Below, piece after piece: positions 56,474-62,243 of a stretch of 64,000 nucleotides of DNA (position 1 is the first letter of the stretch; each line of letters begins with the position of its first letter). The notes beneath the pieces were generated by a model. It made no database searches and was not told the origin of the DNA. It was given only the letters and a program-made list of their open reading frames with translations. The DNA comes from Denitrovibrio acetiphilus DSM 12809 (lineage in GTDB: Bacteria; Chrysiogenota; Deferribacteres; Deferribacterales; Geovibrionaceae): contig NC_013943.1 of the NCBI RefSeq assembly GCF_000025725.1, forward strand, positions 310,001 through 374,000, written 5' to 3'. The translations under genes and the position numbers were made by a program.

Positions 56474-57602
56474 AGACAGTGATAATAAAAATAAATGCTG
56501 TGGCGGCTGCGACAAGCTGAAAGTTGAAATTAACTCTGTGCACATCGGCTGCTTTTGCTATTGTATCCATTACTATAGGTGAGAAAAACTGACCGATGAA
56601 TATGGATAGGGTAACTGCTGATGTGGCTGCTACATTATTGCCCTTTGCCGCTTCTGTTGCCTTGACCATAATATACGGTATGGACATACTCAGGGTATAT
56701 CCGTTTGCTATCATGGCTAAGTTGACTGCTGCCACAGAGCTTGTAAAGCCAAGAAGCAGATGACATATGAGCATGGAAAAGGCTATTGAAGGTACGTAGA
56801 CACGTCCAAGTTTTTTTCTGACTTTTGCAACTGTGAGCCCAAGAAGCATCGCTGTTCCTGTTGAGAATGCCATAGCGTATCCCGCTTCTTTCGGACCTCC
56901 CAGCCCTGCGGAGGCAAGATATACTGCGATATTGGTAGGTATAGTGTAAAACCCCAGAAACACCAGAAAGCCTGGGAGTGCTTTTATATATACCTCAAGA
57001 GGCAGTTTAAGTCTTGGTGCCTTTTTGTCAAAATTCTTTGTCTGTTCCGGTTCTTTAATGAAAAGCATAGCAATTATGAAAACCGGTATCCCCATAGCAT
57101 AAACAAGGAAAGCGTACCGCCAGTTTATGGATGCCAGCAGTCCGGAAGAAAATGTTGCGAGAATTCCGCCGAAATTCGCAAAAGCGGCATTGTACCCCAT
57201 CATGCGCATCCGCTTTTCTCCATGAAAGAAGTCTGCTATCAGAGCTGCTGCAACAGGCATTATGATACCGACAGCAACGCCCAGAACTGCTCTGGAGGCA
57301 AGAAGCATATAGATATCTGTTGCAAAGAAAGCCCAGCAGCCTGAAACGGTATAGATTGCTACCCCTGCAAGAGCAAGATTTTTCTTAGATATTCCGCCGG
57401 AGAATTTCCCGATACAATAGGATGTGGGGATAATAAAGACAGCGGGCAGGGTAAGGATCATTTTTATGAGTGTCGGCTGGGCACCCTTTATGCTGTTCTG
57501 AATATCTGCAAGTGCAGGAGACACAGCGGCTCCCGCCATTATTGTCAGTAGAGAAAGTGATAGTATTCCGAAGGAGAGGAGAGGTTTATTGTTACTCTGC
57601 AT
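56445..57602 (-). CDS. MFS transporter
   Basis: The 385-residue protein has 12 predicted helices and MFS motifs ('SYCIGKFSGGISKKNLALAG' in loop 2-3, 'ASRAVLGVAVGIIMPVAAAL' in helices 4-5, 'MGYNAAFANFGGILATFSSG'). It resembles drug/H+ antiporters of the Bcr/EmrD-type size class; substrate unknown. The ATG at 57602 is chosen because it overlaps the end of the hemerythrin gene by 11 nt; the frame is open 11 codons further up. Confidence 0.85.
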   Translation of the reverse strand: MQSNNKPLLSFGILSLSLLTIMAGAAVSPALADIQNSIKGAQPTLIKMILTLPAVFIIPTSYCIGKFSGGISKKNLALAGVAIYTVSGCWAFFATDIYMLLASRAVLGVAVGIIMPVAAALIADFFHGEKRMRMMGYNAAFANFGGILATFSSGLLASINWRYAFLVYAMGIPVFIIAMLFIKEPEQTKNFDKKAPRLKLPLEVYIKALPGFLVFLGFYTIPTNIAVYLASAGLGGPKEAGYAMAFSTGTAMLLGLTVAKVRKKLGRVYVPSIAFSMLICHLLLGFTSSVAAVNLAMIANGYTLSMSIPYIMVKATEAAKGNNVAATSAVTLSIFIGQFFSPIVMDTIAKAADVHRVNFNFQLVAAATAFIFIITVFRSFRHSEP

Positions 57603-57999
57603 TGCTTCTGAGGTATGCAGCCAGTCTGAGGTCATAGCCCATTATATGTTCTACAAACCACACCTGAAGCAGAGTTGTGAGCTCATCTTCCACGCGTTCA
57701 GAATTGCCTGAAGATATAAGTTTTTTATAGCAGGCCATAAGAGTATTCACAATATTTCTGTGTGCAGACATATGCTCTTTCAAGTCAGGGTAGCCGCTCT
57801 TTCTCATAAGTTCTTCTTCAGTGCTGAAATGGAAACGGACATATTTTACAAGATAGTTCAGGGTGCGCACGGTTATTTCGTGGCTGAACTCTCTGCTTAT
57901 GCTGTCAAAGAAGTTATTGATGTGTTCAAATAGTTCTTTGTGCTGTTCGTCAATTGTTGCGTTACCACTTTCAAGCGATGATGTCCATACTGCTTTCAT
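57592..57999 (-). CDS. Bacteriohemerythrin
   Basis: The 135-residue four-helix protein carries all seven diiron ligands at the classical spacing: His20, His57, Glu61, His76, His80, His118 and Asp123. It binds O2 reversibly or senses it; in anaerobes it may protect or deliver oxygen. GGAGGG precedes the ATG. The MFS transporter gene overlaps its end, so they are probably cotranscribed. Confidence 0.95.
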   Translation of the reverse strand: MKAVWTSSLESGNATIDEQHKELFEHINNFFDSISREFSHEITVRTLNYLVKYVRFHFSTEEELMRKSGYPDLKEHMSAHRNIVNTLMACYKKLISSGNSERVEDELTTLLQVWFVEHIMGYDLRLAAYLRSNAE

Positions 58000-58052: not shown

Positions 58053-58391
58053 TTACTTATTATTATCGTCGTGACAGTTGCGGCATGTATCCAGAGGCGC
58101 ATGATTACCGTTTTGAGGCCATTGGTTGTGACACTGGAAACAATCATTACCACACTTCTCCGAACCGCCCCCACCAAGCTGAAAAATCTGTTCGCTTACC
58201 GGCTTGTGGCACTGAATGCATGTAGTCAATGCCAGATGGTCTTTGTCCCCTTCGAGCTGTGGGTGACATGTCATGCAGTCACCTGCACATCCTGCGTGGG
58301 CCGCTATGGTAAGAGCTGCCACAGCAAAGACTGTACAGAGTCCAGCAGCAATTCTCCCCTTTTTTTCAGCGACACGTTTGAACCATCCCAT
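58053..58391 (-). CDS. Periplasmic tetraheme c-type cytochrome
   Basis: The 112-residue precursor has a signal peptide (about 1-33, 'GLCTVFAVAALTIAAHA') and four CxxCH heme sites: C39-H43, C58-H62, C84-H88 and C103-H107. Extra His residues (52, 97 region) could give bis-His ligation. It is a small multiheme electron carrier. AAGGAG precedes the ATG. Its first 88 nt overlap the 3' end of hemW in another frame. Confidence 0.92.
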   Translation of the reverse strand: MGWFKRVAEKKGRIAAGLCTVFAVAALTIAAHAGCAGDCMTCHPQLEGDKDHLALTTCIQCHKPVSEQIFQLGGGGSEKCGNDCFQCHNQWPQNGNHAPLDTCRNCHDDNNK

Positions 58392-59395
58392 GATAAAAGC
58401 TCCTTTTCTGACAGGTCAGAAAACAAATTATATATTTTTTCCTTTAGTTCTGCATTAACATTCGTACATATTTTTTCAGCGTCCAGCCCTTTTGCCAGTC
58501 GCAGCCCGAACACAATCTCTTCCAGAGCGGTTTGCGGAGGCTCTGTGATCTCTGTTTCCGCATATTCCTTCGGAGAATGAATATACTCAGGCAGATTGTC
58601 GGATTTGCCTCTGAGTATGCGCTTGCCATCTTCGTAGCTGAGTGACCATGCAGAAGAACCTATGCCGTCATATTCACCAAGCATCCAGTAGTTTATATTA
58701 TGCATGCTCTCATGTCCGGGTCTTGCAAAATTTGATATTTCATATTTTACATATCCTGCATTTTCAAGTTCGTCACGTACAACCATAAAGTCTGTTGCGT
58801 CAGCATCTCCCTCTTTGAGGAACTCTGTATCAAAGCTGTATGTGTATGCAGAAATATGTTCAGGATTTAATGCTATTAGGTCTTTGAGTGTTTTATAAGT
58901 GCTCTCAAACTGTGTGCCGGGTATATCATACATCATGTCAAGGCTGACATCAGTGTCCGGACAGAGCTTACGCACCATGTCGTAAGAGTGGAATATATCG
59001 CTCGCTGAGTGTATCCTTGTCAGCTTTTGCAGTACATCGTCAGAGGTACTCTGGCACCCTATACTTACCCGTGAAAACTTATAAAAATCCACTATCCTGC
59101 AAAACTCTTTATCAATACTTTCCGGATTTGCTTCAATAGTGCTCTCTTTAAAATCCCATCTGCATGTTATTGAAACAGCGTCCAGAAATGAAGCAAGGAG
59201 CTTTCTGTCTGCTGTTGACGGTGTTCCTCCGCCAATATACAGCGTTTCGTAAGCATGTTTTTTCCTGCTTCGCAGATCAGATATCAGGGCTTTGAAATAG
59301 TCCGCCTGTGTGTCATAGCAGTCTGTCTCAGAGTAGAACCCGCAGTATGCACACTTGTTTCTGCAAAATGGCAGATGGACATAAAGACCTTTCAC
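58304..59395 (-). CDS. hemW: HemW-like radical SAM protein (heme chaperone)
   Basis: The 363-residue protein has the radical SAM cluster motif 'CRNKCAYCGF', with HemW features 'TLYIGGGTPSTADRKLL', 'EANPESIDKE', 'RVSIGCQSTSDDVLQKLTRIH', and 'ISAYTYSF'. HemW proteins bind heme and may insert it into respiratory enzymes; they are not true coproporphyrinogen oxidases. The start is GTG at 59395 and lies 3 nt after the stop of the candidate selenoprotein. The end 'KKRGELLLDSVQSLL' is the normal family C-terminus, so the 88-nt overlap with the tetraheme cytochrome appears genuine. Confidence 0.93.
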   Translation of the reverse strand: MKGLYVHLPFCRNKCAYCGFYSETDCYDTQADYFKALISDLRSRKKHAYETLYIGGGTPSTADRKLLASFLDAVSITCRWDFKESTIEANPESIDKEFCRIVDFYKFSRVSIGCQSTSDDVLQKLTRIHSASDIFHSYDMVRKLCPDTDVSLDMMYDIPGTQFESTYKTLKDLIALNPEHISAYTYSFDTEFLKEGDADATDFMVVRDELENAGYVKYEISNFARPGHESMHNINYWMLGEYDGIGSSAWSLSYEDGKRILRGKSDNLPEYIHSPKEYAETEITEPPQTALEEIVFGLRLAKGLDAEKICTNVNAELKEKIYNLFSDLSEKELLSWDGSNVSLKKRGELLLDSVQSLLWQLLP

Positions 59396-59398
59396 CTT

Positions 59399-59563
59399 TC
59401 ACTTTTCCTCTTTATCCTTCTTTTTTTCATTCTTTTTCATCTTTTTGTATCGATCCTCGATACTGCAGCTGTCTGCTCCGATGCCTCAGCCGCCGCCTGG
59501 TTTCAGCCTTGCCATAACTATGACAAAGACAATGAACAGGATAAGTCCGATATAATCTTCCAT
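59399..59563 (-). CDS. Candidate selenoprotein: small membrane protein with in-frame TGA
   Basis: From an ATG at 59563 with AGAGGG upstream, the frame encodes a membrane helix ('YIGLILFIVFVIVMARL') and GGG, reaches TGA at 59488-59486, then stays open for 28 more codons (GIGADSCSIEDRYKK, then a Lys/Glu-rich tail) to a TGA at 59401-59399, one codon before the hemW GTG. The other two frames of the tail have stops. Read as Sec, the protein is 54 residues with Sec26 and Cys33. A bSECIS-like hairpin follows the TGA. The alternative is a 25-residue peptide ending in GGG with the tail as coincidence. Function unknown; the neighbourhood (hemW, tetraheme cytochrome) suggests redox or heme work. Confidence 0.55.
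59447..59463 (-). promoter_or_regulatory. Candidate bacterial SECIS hairpin
   Basis: On the minus strand GTATCG pairs perfectly with CGATAC around the 5-nt loop AGGAT. The loop begins 28 nt after the TGA (59488-59486), within the 16-37 nt range described for bacterial SECIS elements. The second loop base is G, as required among the first two positions. The hairpin is inside the coding region, as bacterial SECIS elements are. Confidence 0.5.
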
Positions 59564-59578
59564 AAATCCCTCTTACAA

Positions 59579-61669
59579 TTATTGAACGAGACCTTCTACA
59601 GGTCTGCCGTCAATAAAGTATTTATATGATATTCTGTCAGTCATTTTTGGAATATAGTTTCCGTTAATGCAGATGTTCAGTTTTTCGGAGCTCTTTTCGA
59701 ATAATAGGTTTATCTCACCTTTGCTGTTGTTTTGTAATATACCATTTTTAACAAATCCTACCAGTGGATAAATGTCAAGGGGGCTGGTGTTGTAATGCCT
59801 TTTGATGTCACCGGTGATGCTCAGTTCGAATCCGGTGAGGGATTTACCAGGGTAAGAGAACACTGCTTCATAGCAGTAGTCGGGGGTTCCGTCCGCTCCC
59901 GGCTTGTTTCTGTCGCCGATGAGATCCTTCGCTTTTTCGGCTTTGTTTATGAATACGAAAGGACGGACGGTTTTTACTTTCTGATCATTTTTTGAGTATT
60001 CTGTTATTATTATGTACGGCTTTAATGAGTCGTACTGGGATTTTTCAGTAGAGAAATTATGGTTTCCATAGCTGCCTGCTTCCGGTACTCCGCCGATGGC
60101 AACAGATCCGCCATCTTTTAAAAGAACATCTGTAATATCTATCTCCTGGCTGTACGGCTCTTCGCTGGGGTATATCTGACCTGCGTACTGACTGTTGCCT
60201 AGGTAGTTTTGTGTTCCGTCTTGCAGAACGTCATACTTAAATATCGAGATGCGCCCCCGCTGGTTATCCGGCAGGTGGGTTAAGACAAGCTTGGCAGAGA
60301 TATGCTTTATCGGATCGAGCTTAAGTGCCTCTCTGTTCGGAGATATATAGATCATTGCGTTTGAGTCGCGTCCTGCACCGATGTTCAGAATGTTGTCTGA
60401 GGAGCGGAGAAGTTTTCCGTTGAAATCAACTGCATAAGTTTTAATATCCGCAGTTTTATCGGTAAGAATAACTTTCCTTTCAACAGGTCTGTAGCCACCG
60501 GTATCAGCATTGAAGCTGCCGCCGCCGCCTGTTCCTGTCCATTTGCCTTCAAGTGTTCCGTTTTTGCGGGTTGCGTTGAAAACCTGCTCACATCCGAAAT
60601 CAGTACCCGCCCTTTTGCAGTCGAGGGTGAGTGTTATCCCGTCTTCTGTTGATTCCCCTTTGATCGGGTAGCTCTGATAACCTTTGGATGTATTTACATA
60701 GGCAGTTCCAAAGACCTTTGTGCCTGCTGTTTCAAGGTTCCATATCTGTTTTCTGGTCTTTCCGCTGGTGTCATAAATCATAGCACTCTCAAAGAAACCA
60801 CCCTTGAACATGGTCATTTTAGAAGCCTGATCGTAGTCAAGGTAGAAAGTTGCTCCAAGCTCTATGTCGTCTATGCCGTCAAGCATTATAGAATGTTTAA
60901 AGTTGCCTTCGCTGTCTGTCAGAAAGCTGTCTCCGGTTTCGAGAATATTTACAGTGGCAGCCGGCAGAGGATCAAGTTCTTTGGTAAAAACTTTTCCGCT
61001 CACAGTGATGCTTGCAGGAAAATCAGTGGTAAATGCAAGCTGTTTGGTCTGAAGCTCATACCCTTCGGCAGACACTTCCAGAGTGAGCTTTTTTATCAGG
61101 TACATGTCAGTGTTATCAAGGATGAATTTATCAAGAGCTTCGTTAACAGGGTTTGCAATGTCCATCAATGCGAAGCCGTCATTTGCGTGCATCCAGACAA
61201 CAAAAGTTTTATTTATAAAAACGAGATAAAAATCTGCATCGTTGATGTAGCCTGATTTCGGGTAGATGAAGAAAAGCCCGCGTTCCCCGAAACGCACCTG
61301 CTGGCTCCTGTTTTTAGGCGCATCTTTGGTTAGTTCATGGAAATACATTGAAGCGTCCACAAAGTTATTAAAGGAGTATAGAGCGATATTGGTTTCAAAC
61401 TGCCCCTTGCGGATGATATTCATCATCTTTTTTGATTTGCCGGAATAAAATGAATAGGTTGTTGAATATACCGTGTGATTGTCCTCAGTTTTCTTTTTGA
61501 CACCTGTGTTCAGCCAGAGCTCAGCTCCTCCGTCAAGGTCGGTGACCTTTGGGAAAAATGCACGTACCTGCATTTCAGAAACAGGAGCGGCGTAGGCGTA
61601 GCCCGTTGTGAGTATTAGAAGTGAAATGAAGATTAACAGCTCGCCGGTGAGTATTTTTATAATTTTCAT
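59579..61669 (-). CDS. Large secreted protein, unknown function
   Basis: The 696-residue protein has a signal peptide (about 1-28, 'ILTGELLIFISLLILTTGYA' then YAAPVSE). It is not a recognised enzyme. A beta-sandwich region near 220-290 ('SITVSGKVFTKELDPLPAAT', 'VNILETGDSFLTDSEGNFKHS') looks like a carboxypeptidase-regulatory-like domain. The rest is beta-rich with Gly-rich turns ('GKWTGTGGGGSFNADTGG'). It probably works outside the inner membrane. I chose the ATG at 61669 because AAAGG lies upstream; the frame extends to 61765. It lies upstream of the selenoprotein-hemW run, 15 nt before the ATG at 59563, so it may head that operon. Confidence 0.7.
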   Translation of the reverse strand: MKIIKILTGELLIFISLLILTTGYAYAAPVSEMQVRAFFPKVTDLDGGAELWLNTGVKKKTEDNHTVYSTTYSFYSGKSKKMMNIIRKGQFETNIALYSFNNFVDASMYFHELTKDAPKNRSQQVRFGERGLFFIYPKSGYINDADFYLVFINKTFVVWMHANDGFALMDIANPVNEALDKFILDNTDMYLIKKLTLEVSAEGYELQTKQLAFTTDFPASITVSGKVFTKELDPLPAATVNILETGDSFLTDSEGNFKHSIMLDGIDDIELGATFYLDYDQASKMTMFKGGFFESAMIYDTSGKTRKQIWNLETAGTKVFGTAYVNTSKGYQSYPIKGESTEDGITLTLDCKRAGTDFGCEQVFNATRKNGTLEGKWTGTGGGGSFNADTGGYRPVERKVILTDKTADIKTYAVDFNGKLLRSSDNILNIGAGRDSNAMIYISPNREALKLDPIKHISAKLVLTHLPDNQRGRISIFKYDVLQDGTQNYLGNSQYAGQIYPSEEPYSQEIDITDVLLKDGGSVAIGGVPEAGSYGNHNFSTEKSQYDSLKPYIIITEYSKNDQKVKTVRPFVFINKAEKAKDLIGDRNKPGADGTPDYCYEAVFSYPGKSLTGFELSITGDIKRHYNTSPLDIYPLVGFVKNGILQNNSKGEINLLFEKSSEKLNICINGNYIPKMTDRISYKYFIDGRPVEGLVQ

Positions 61670-61895: not shown

Positions 61896-62243
61896 ATGAC
61901 TGACGATATATTTCAGATATCTGAACCCCATGAGGATCTTCTGTCTGAACTCAGAGGGAAGATGCTTTCTGACGATTCGCTGAAAGATCTGGCGGACACA
62001 TTCAAGCTTTTATCAGATTTCACAAGGGTGAAGATCCTTTATGTGTTGTCCCTCTCTGAACTTTGTGTTCAGGACATTTCCGAACTGACAGGGGTCTCCC
62101 AGTCTGCTGTGTCACATCAGCTTCGTATATTGCGCAACTCCCGTCTCGTCAGCTGGAAGAAAACCGGCAAACAGGTCTTTTACAGCCTAAACAGTGATGC
62201 TGTACGTGCCCTGATAGAAAAGGGTATGGAGCACAGTGTTTAA
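61896..62243 (+). CDS. ArsR/SmtB-family transcriptional regulator
   Basis: The 115-residue winged-helix repressor has the ArsR core 'DLADTFKLLSDFTRVKILYV', 'SELCVQDISELTGVSQSAVSHQLRILRNS' (split: SELCVQDISELTGVSQSAVS) and wing 'KTGKQVFYSL'. Cys57 lies in the place of the ELCVCD metal site but the second Cys is Gln; the C-terminal helix keeps Asp101 and His113 of the SmtB Zn site. The inducer metal is therefore unclear. AGGA precedes the ATG. No metal pump or resistance gene follows; instead the gene end is duplicated downstream. Confidence 0.9.
   Translation: MTDDIFQISEPHEDLLSELRGKMLSDDSLKDLADTFKLLSDFTRVKILYVLSLSELCVQDISELTGVSQSAVSHQLRILRNSRLVSWKKTGKQVFYSLNSDAVRALIEKGMEHSV

Follow-up and report, generated by a model that had tools for sequence, protein, structure and literature searches.

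The minus strand of Denitrovibrio acetiphilus DSM 12809 carries, directly upstream of hemW, a short reading frame that is interrupted by a TGA, which raises the question of whether this codon terminates a small membrane peptide or is read as selenocysteine (Sec) within a longer protein. The window is the whole stretch of 64,000 nucleotides that was analysed (contig NC_013943.1, positions 310,001 to 374,000), and the frame from 59563 to 59399 translates as MEDYIGLILFIVFVIVMARLKPGGG-U-GIGADSCSIEDRYKKMKKNEKKKDKEEK-stop. The initial annotation, made from the sequence alone, proposed an undescribed selenoprotein on the basis of the reading frame with its in-frame TGA, a tail of 28 open codons behind it, stops in both other frames of the tail, and a perfect hairpin (GTATCG-AGGAT-CGATAC) whose loop begins 28 nt past the in-frame TGA. 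All of these features are confirmed from the sequence. As a whole, the explanation that we favour is a Sec-decoded single-pass membrane protein that would act as a thioredoxin-reduced redox relay, to which we assign a probability of roughly 0.8. Gene finders would truncate the 54-residue membrane protein at the in-frame UGA. The AGAGGG ahead of the ATG is plausibly a ribosome-binding site. The features are listed in Table 1.

Table 1. Features of the locus in window coordinates, with the evidence for each.
Feature	Position	Strand	Evidence
Putative selenoprotein gene, 54 residues with Sec26, and stop codon (TGA)	59399..59563	-	21 Deferribacterota genomes have homologues whose in-frame TGA is at the matching position
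UGA codon of predicted selenocysteine 26	59486..59488	-	Conserved as TGA in all close relatives; also TGA in 36 genomes beyond the phylum, all of them with SelB
Predicted bSECIS hairpin within the coding tail: stem GTATCG/CGATAC, loop AGGAT (alternatively 7 bp, loop GGA)	59447..59463	-	Fold, synonymous-recoding control, fixed codons, random-TGA control
Predicted transmembrane helix, residues 3-20	59504..59557	-	Hydropathy over 59 members; helix 3-20 in the AlphaFold2 model
Cys33 codon, likely resolving cysteine	59465..59467	-	Unchanged in all 21 Deferribacterota members; of 38 members elsewhere, 32 have a Cys no more than 13 residues from Sec
Predicted tail helix, charged, lysine-rich, residues 35-53 (to residue 54)	59402..59461	-	Conservation and AlphaFold2 model
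Shine-Dalgarno-like AGAGGG, 4 nt upstream of the ATG	59568..59573	-	Sequence
Adjacent upstream gene; product has a signal-like N-terminus and about 690 residues; found at this position in four of the five Deferribacterota families	59579..61669	-	
hemW, directly downstream, same frame, one spacer codon between	58304..59395	-	TIGR00539 above its cut-off

The surrounding genes are as the initial annotation described them, with hemW and a four-CxxCH protein on one side and a secreted-type protein with a signal-like N-terminus on the other. After hemW lie a bacteriohemerythrin and the small protein with four CxxCH heme motifs (57592-57999 and 58053-58391, both on the minus strand). The upstream protein of about 690 residues (59579-61669, minus strand) has a weak CarboxypepD_reg-like match.

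Hairpin, close relatives and decoding machinery

The published rules for a bacterial SECIS element (bSECIS) specify a loop of 3-9 nt, a stem of 4-16 bp, a G in the first two loop positions and a spacing of 16-37 nt, together with an energy of -7.5 kcal/mol or lower (PMC13188914). The initial annotation held that the hairpin obeys such rules, and this stands for loop, stem, loop G and spacing, all of which are met (PMC13188914). On energy the hairpin alone falls just short, at -7.4 kcal/mol against the cut-off of -7.5, and the 57-nt region that contains it reaches -13.9 kcal/mol. ViennaRNA adds one A-U pair to the hairpin, giving 7 bp and a GGA loop, and the 57-nt region folds better than each of 200 dinucleotide shuffles (z = -3.96). 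No Rfam family matches the hairpin. A repeated or mobile palindrome was considered and rejected, since the motif is found once in the genome.

The gene was recovered from 21 of the 60 genomes searched, which represent five families of one order, and the clade that carries it is Deferribacterota (Denitrovibrio, Seleniivibrio, Calditerrivibrio). The TGA is always at the same position, and none of the 21 close relatives ends there with TAA or TAG. The segment after the TGA, CSIEDRYKK, is the best-conserved part of the protein, and the selenoprotein claim of the initial annotation withstands both of these checks. Within the hairpin, the codons for S-I-E-D-R-Y show a single substitution across the 21 genomes and the adjacent codons vary. 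AGT, GAG, GAT, CGA and TAC are invariant and ATC is replaced once by GTC, which retains a G-U pair; the Cys codon is either TGC or TGT, and most codons immediately 5' of the TGA vary freely. Fixed codons of this kind are the signature of a sequence predicted to serve as both protein and RNA structure. The distance from the TGA to the loop is 28 or 22 nt in Deferribacterota, differing by whole codons. The arrangement of TGA, tail and hairpin is far beyond chance, as judged by the shuffle test and by conservation over the 21 Deferribacterota genomes.

The components for Sec decoding that the initial annotation left to be checked are all present in the D. acetiphilus genome: selA adjoins selB, and one tRNA-Sec (anticodon TCA) and selD are found. 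Because selD (G000:C1:2752413-2753327, L189) also contains an in-frame TGA, with a GGC-loop hairpin behind it, SelD is a predicted selenoprotein and a second expected Sec-decoding target in this genome. Among Deferribacterota assemblies that are at least 95% complete, 16 contain both the gene and SelB, 16 contain neither, two contain SelB only and none contains the gene only (p = 7e-8). Three Deferribacterota assemblies of 73-92% completeness have the gene without a detected SelB, which counts against the selenoprotein reading.

Distant members and the extent of the family

Profiles that were extended stepwise (A2, A4 and A5) were used to survey 385 genomes, 334 of which lie outside the phylum. 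The family occurs in 36 of these 334 genomes, distributed over 32 families, and every occurrence has the TGA and a SelB-positive genome. SelB itself was detected in 151 of the 334, and close to a quarter of these SelB-positive genomes have the family (36/151; p = 3e-14 for the association with SelB). The 59 members that were examined comprise the 21 from Deferribacterota and 38 from elsewhere. Distant members have a membrane helix, which is usually followed by [LF]P-x-[LMF]G-[VI]-x-T-U. A locus from a MAG (L068) has a different N-terminus with PKLGVSTUMSEA ahead of an identical CSIEDRYKK and hairpin, and forms an apparent bridge between the Deferribacterota-type and the distant members. Profiles built from only one half matched, among the collected loci, only members of the other half, with weak scores (best E 0.0018; 9.5e-6 in the reverse direction). 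In two genomes, G269 and G127, the frame stays open past the TGA and goes on to encode an entire thioredoxin domain (PF00085; E 6e-29 and 8e-29).

A bSECIS-type hairpin was found in 59 of the 59 members examined. Among the distant members the stem sequences differ almost everywhere, with pairing kept and the loop staying GG or GU, and one clear compensated stem pair is observed (GTATCG/CGATAC versus CTGTCG/CGACAG, both around AGGAT). The mean hairpin energy of the 38 members outside the phylum is -8.3 kcal/mol, compared with -2.2 kcal/mol for synonymous recodings (z = -14), and -5 kcal/mol is reached by 90% of members versus 11% of random TGAs from the same loci.

At an E threshold of 0.001, no Cys form was detected in the 385 genomes. 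One member (L148, G296:C168:3081-3194) has CGA (Arg) at the Sec position and a tail shortened to MSDGCK in a SelB-positive genome, and reflects either an ongoing loss or an error in sequencing. Weak stop-free candidates (L024, L026, L028 and L047-L050) were rejected as Cys homologues because they belong to a different type of short membrane protein that is rich in Cys (tail CGCG...), and a match in G191 was rejected for its length of only 16 residues. One further match, G188, ends just before the Sec position; G188 and G149 were not inspected by eye. Viral contigs, searched without profile A5, matched neither the exact hairpin pattern nor the family; plasmids gave no match for the one member searched, and PADLOC gave no match.

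Comparison of these sequences strongly supports both Sec decoding with a SECIS element and a single protein family that occurs in more than 30 bacterial families and is in some cases fused to thioredoxin. Although there is no protein evidence, the product is almost certainly a selenoprotein. The breadth of the family, the absence of Cys forms and the thioredoxin fusions were not foreseen in the initial annotation.

Topology, proposed mechanism and alternative readings

The charge averages -0.7 before the helix and +1.6 after it in the 59 members, and the positive-inside rule predicts an N-out, C-in orientation for 44 members and the reverse for 8. The AlphaFold2 model (mean pLDDT 70) contains helices at residues 3-20 and 35-53 and, between them, a loop of low confidence in which Sec26 and Cys33 lie. 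A Cys is located within 13 residues after Sec in 53 of the 59 members, most often as U-x4-C. The redox pair of Sec26 and Cys33 that was suggested at the outset is sustained within Deferribacterota, where all members conserve Cys33, but it is not universal, as 6 of the 38 members elsewhere have no Cys within 13 residues of Sec.

We propose that SelB and tRNA-Sec insert selenocysteine at UGA 26, directed by the bSECIS hairpin inside the coding tail, and that the resulting small protein spans the inner membrane once and exposes its N-terminus on the outer face. The Sec would be located in a flexible loop just beyond the membrane on the cytoplasmic side, with a resolving cysteine usually 4 or 6 residues after it, followed by a charged, often lysine-rich tail. 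The most likely reaction is an attack by Sec at the membrane on a substrate, as yet unidentified, that could be an oxidant, a disulfide, a persulfide or a metal(loid); the nearby Cys would then resolve the selenenyl intermediate, and thioredoxin would reduce it. The topology, the redox relay and the reduction by thioredoxin are only inferred, in the absence of biochemistry.

The neighbouring genes bear on this proposal. In the 36 genomes outside the phylum, thioredoxin-fold genes are located within 1 kb in 8, compared with 2 at 3-7 kb. Two of these neighbours are thioredoxin 2 with a zinc ribbon, and two others have lipoprotein-like N-termini. Thioredoxin 2 with a zinc ribbon is a cytosolic type, and these two neighbours therefore fit a cytoplasmic Sec. 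The corresponding counts within 1 kb and at 3-7 kb are 8 versus 0 for FmdB zinc-ribbon genes, 5 versus 1 for YgaP-like membrane genes, 4 versus 0 for RND efflux genes and 4 versus 2 for ArsR genes, and these neighbours point to stress from oxidants, sulfur or metal(loid)s. No thioredoxin gene was recognised beside the selenoprotein gene in Deferribacterota, where the recurrent neighbour is instead the protein of about 690 residues. With the fusions, the neighbours and the U..C motif as its basis, a thioredoxin-linked redox relay at the membrane is an inference for which we see about even odds.

Two further observations concern these genes. The FmdB zinc-ribbon genes adjoin distant members in 8 of the 36 genomes (L152-L187), and an FmdB-family protein is among the predicted selenoproteins (PMC13188914). 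In the window, an ArsR-like regulator (61896-62243, plus strand) lies about 2.3 kb from the selenoprotein gene; ArsR genes recur near distant members as well, but the one in the window is not adjacent.

A true selenoprotein could also use its Sec to bind or transport selenium, sulfur or metal at the membrane, for example in an efflux or sensing system, without any thioredoxin-coupled relay. We hold this to be possible although unlikely: it would account for the ArsR regulators, RND efflux genes and YgaP-like membrane genes that recur nearby and for the members that lack a second Cys, whereas the thioredoxin fusions, the thioredoxin neighbours and the Cys near Sec in 53 of 59 members speak for a relay.

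It is far more doubtful that Sec decoding is real but mainly regulatory, with the ribosome's progress past the UGA serving as a selenium sensor that ties translation to hemW or kdsA downstream, and with a peptide of little importance in itself. The closing TGA (59401-59399) precedes the GTG of hemW (59395) by one codon, and the tail overlaps the start of kdsA in Seleniivibrio-type genomes, both of which suit such coupling. However, the downstream genes vary inside the phylum (hemW, kdsA, a TauE-like gene or unrelated genes) while Sec, helix and tail are conserved, and the thioredoxin fusions imply a function of the protein. Least credible of all is an ordinary stop after a 25-residue membrane peptide, in which case the hairpin would act in regulation or at the DNA level, for instance as terminator or operator of the gene that follows. 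The hairpin does lie near that gene, and a palindrome can serve as a binding site for protein, but the stop choice never varies, the in-frame tail is conserved as protein, the loop distance shifts by whole codons only, occurrence tracks SelB, two members run on into thioredoxin and the hairpin motif is single-copy in the genome.

Comparison with known selenoproteins

The initial claim that the family is undescribed holds against the resources searched. NCBIfam (June 2026), Pfam, PHROGs and PDB sequences gave only chance-level matches for the family, and no NCBIfam match suggested a selenoprotein family for any member scanned. The 119-family table of prokaryotic selenoproteins contains no similar entry (PMC13188914); the specialist literature was incompletely covered, and an earlier mention cannot be fully excluded.

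The closest general comparison is with the bacterial bSECIS selenoproteins such as FdhA and SelD (PMC13188914), with which the Sec-decoded membrane protein proposed here shares an in-frame UGA, a downstream hairpin, a G at the loop start, a spacing of 16-37 nt and an expected dependence on SelB. In contrast to these, the new family is small, membrane-bound and without similarity to the listed families, and no Cys form of it was found in 385 genomes. Cys homologues exist for nearly all selenoproteins known so far, and the majority of discovery methods rely on Cys/Sec pairs (PMC13188914), which may be why the family was missed. On balance, and with some reserve, we favour an undescribed, very widespread, apparently Sec-only membrane selenoprotein family that would function as a thioredoxin-coupled redox module and was overlooked for this reason. 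If true, a family without a detected Cys form that occurs in roughly one in four of the SelB-positive genomes surveyed beyond the phylum would expose a systematic blind spot. The family would be a clean system for asking when selenium is indispensable, would help explain why bacteria retain the costly Sec machinery, and would offer a concrete target for redox chemistry at the bacterial inner membrane.

Eukaryotic selenoproteins K and S cross the membrane once, through a helix close to the N-terminus, and carry their Sec on the cytosolic side within a flexible stretch that is often rich in glycine. The predicted architecture of the new family is alike in its single N-terminal-side helix and in a Sec in a flexible cytosolic-side region, but its Sec adjoins the helix rather than lying near the C-terminus, and its SECIS element is within the coding region; a Pfam search up to E 1 gave no selenoprotein K or S match. 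A thioredoxin-like selenoprotein of Brachyspira carries Sec in a short extension before the thioredoxin domain (PMC5330540), as the two fusion members have a Sec segment ahead of theirs. In the new family, unlike the Brachyspira protein, this segment is a predicted transmembrane module that as a rule occurs unfused; where it is fused, its partner is PF00085 rather than Thioredoxin_3.
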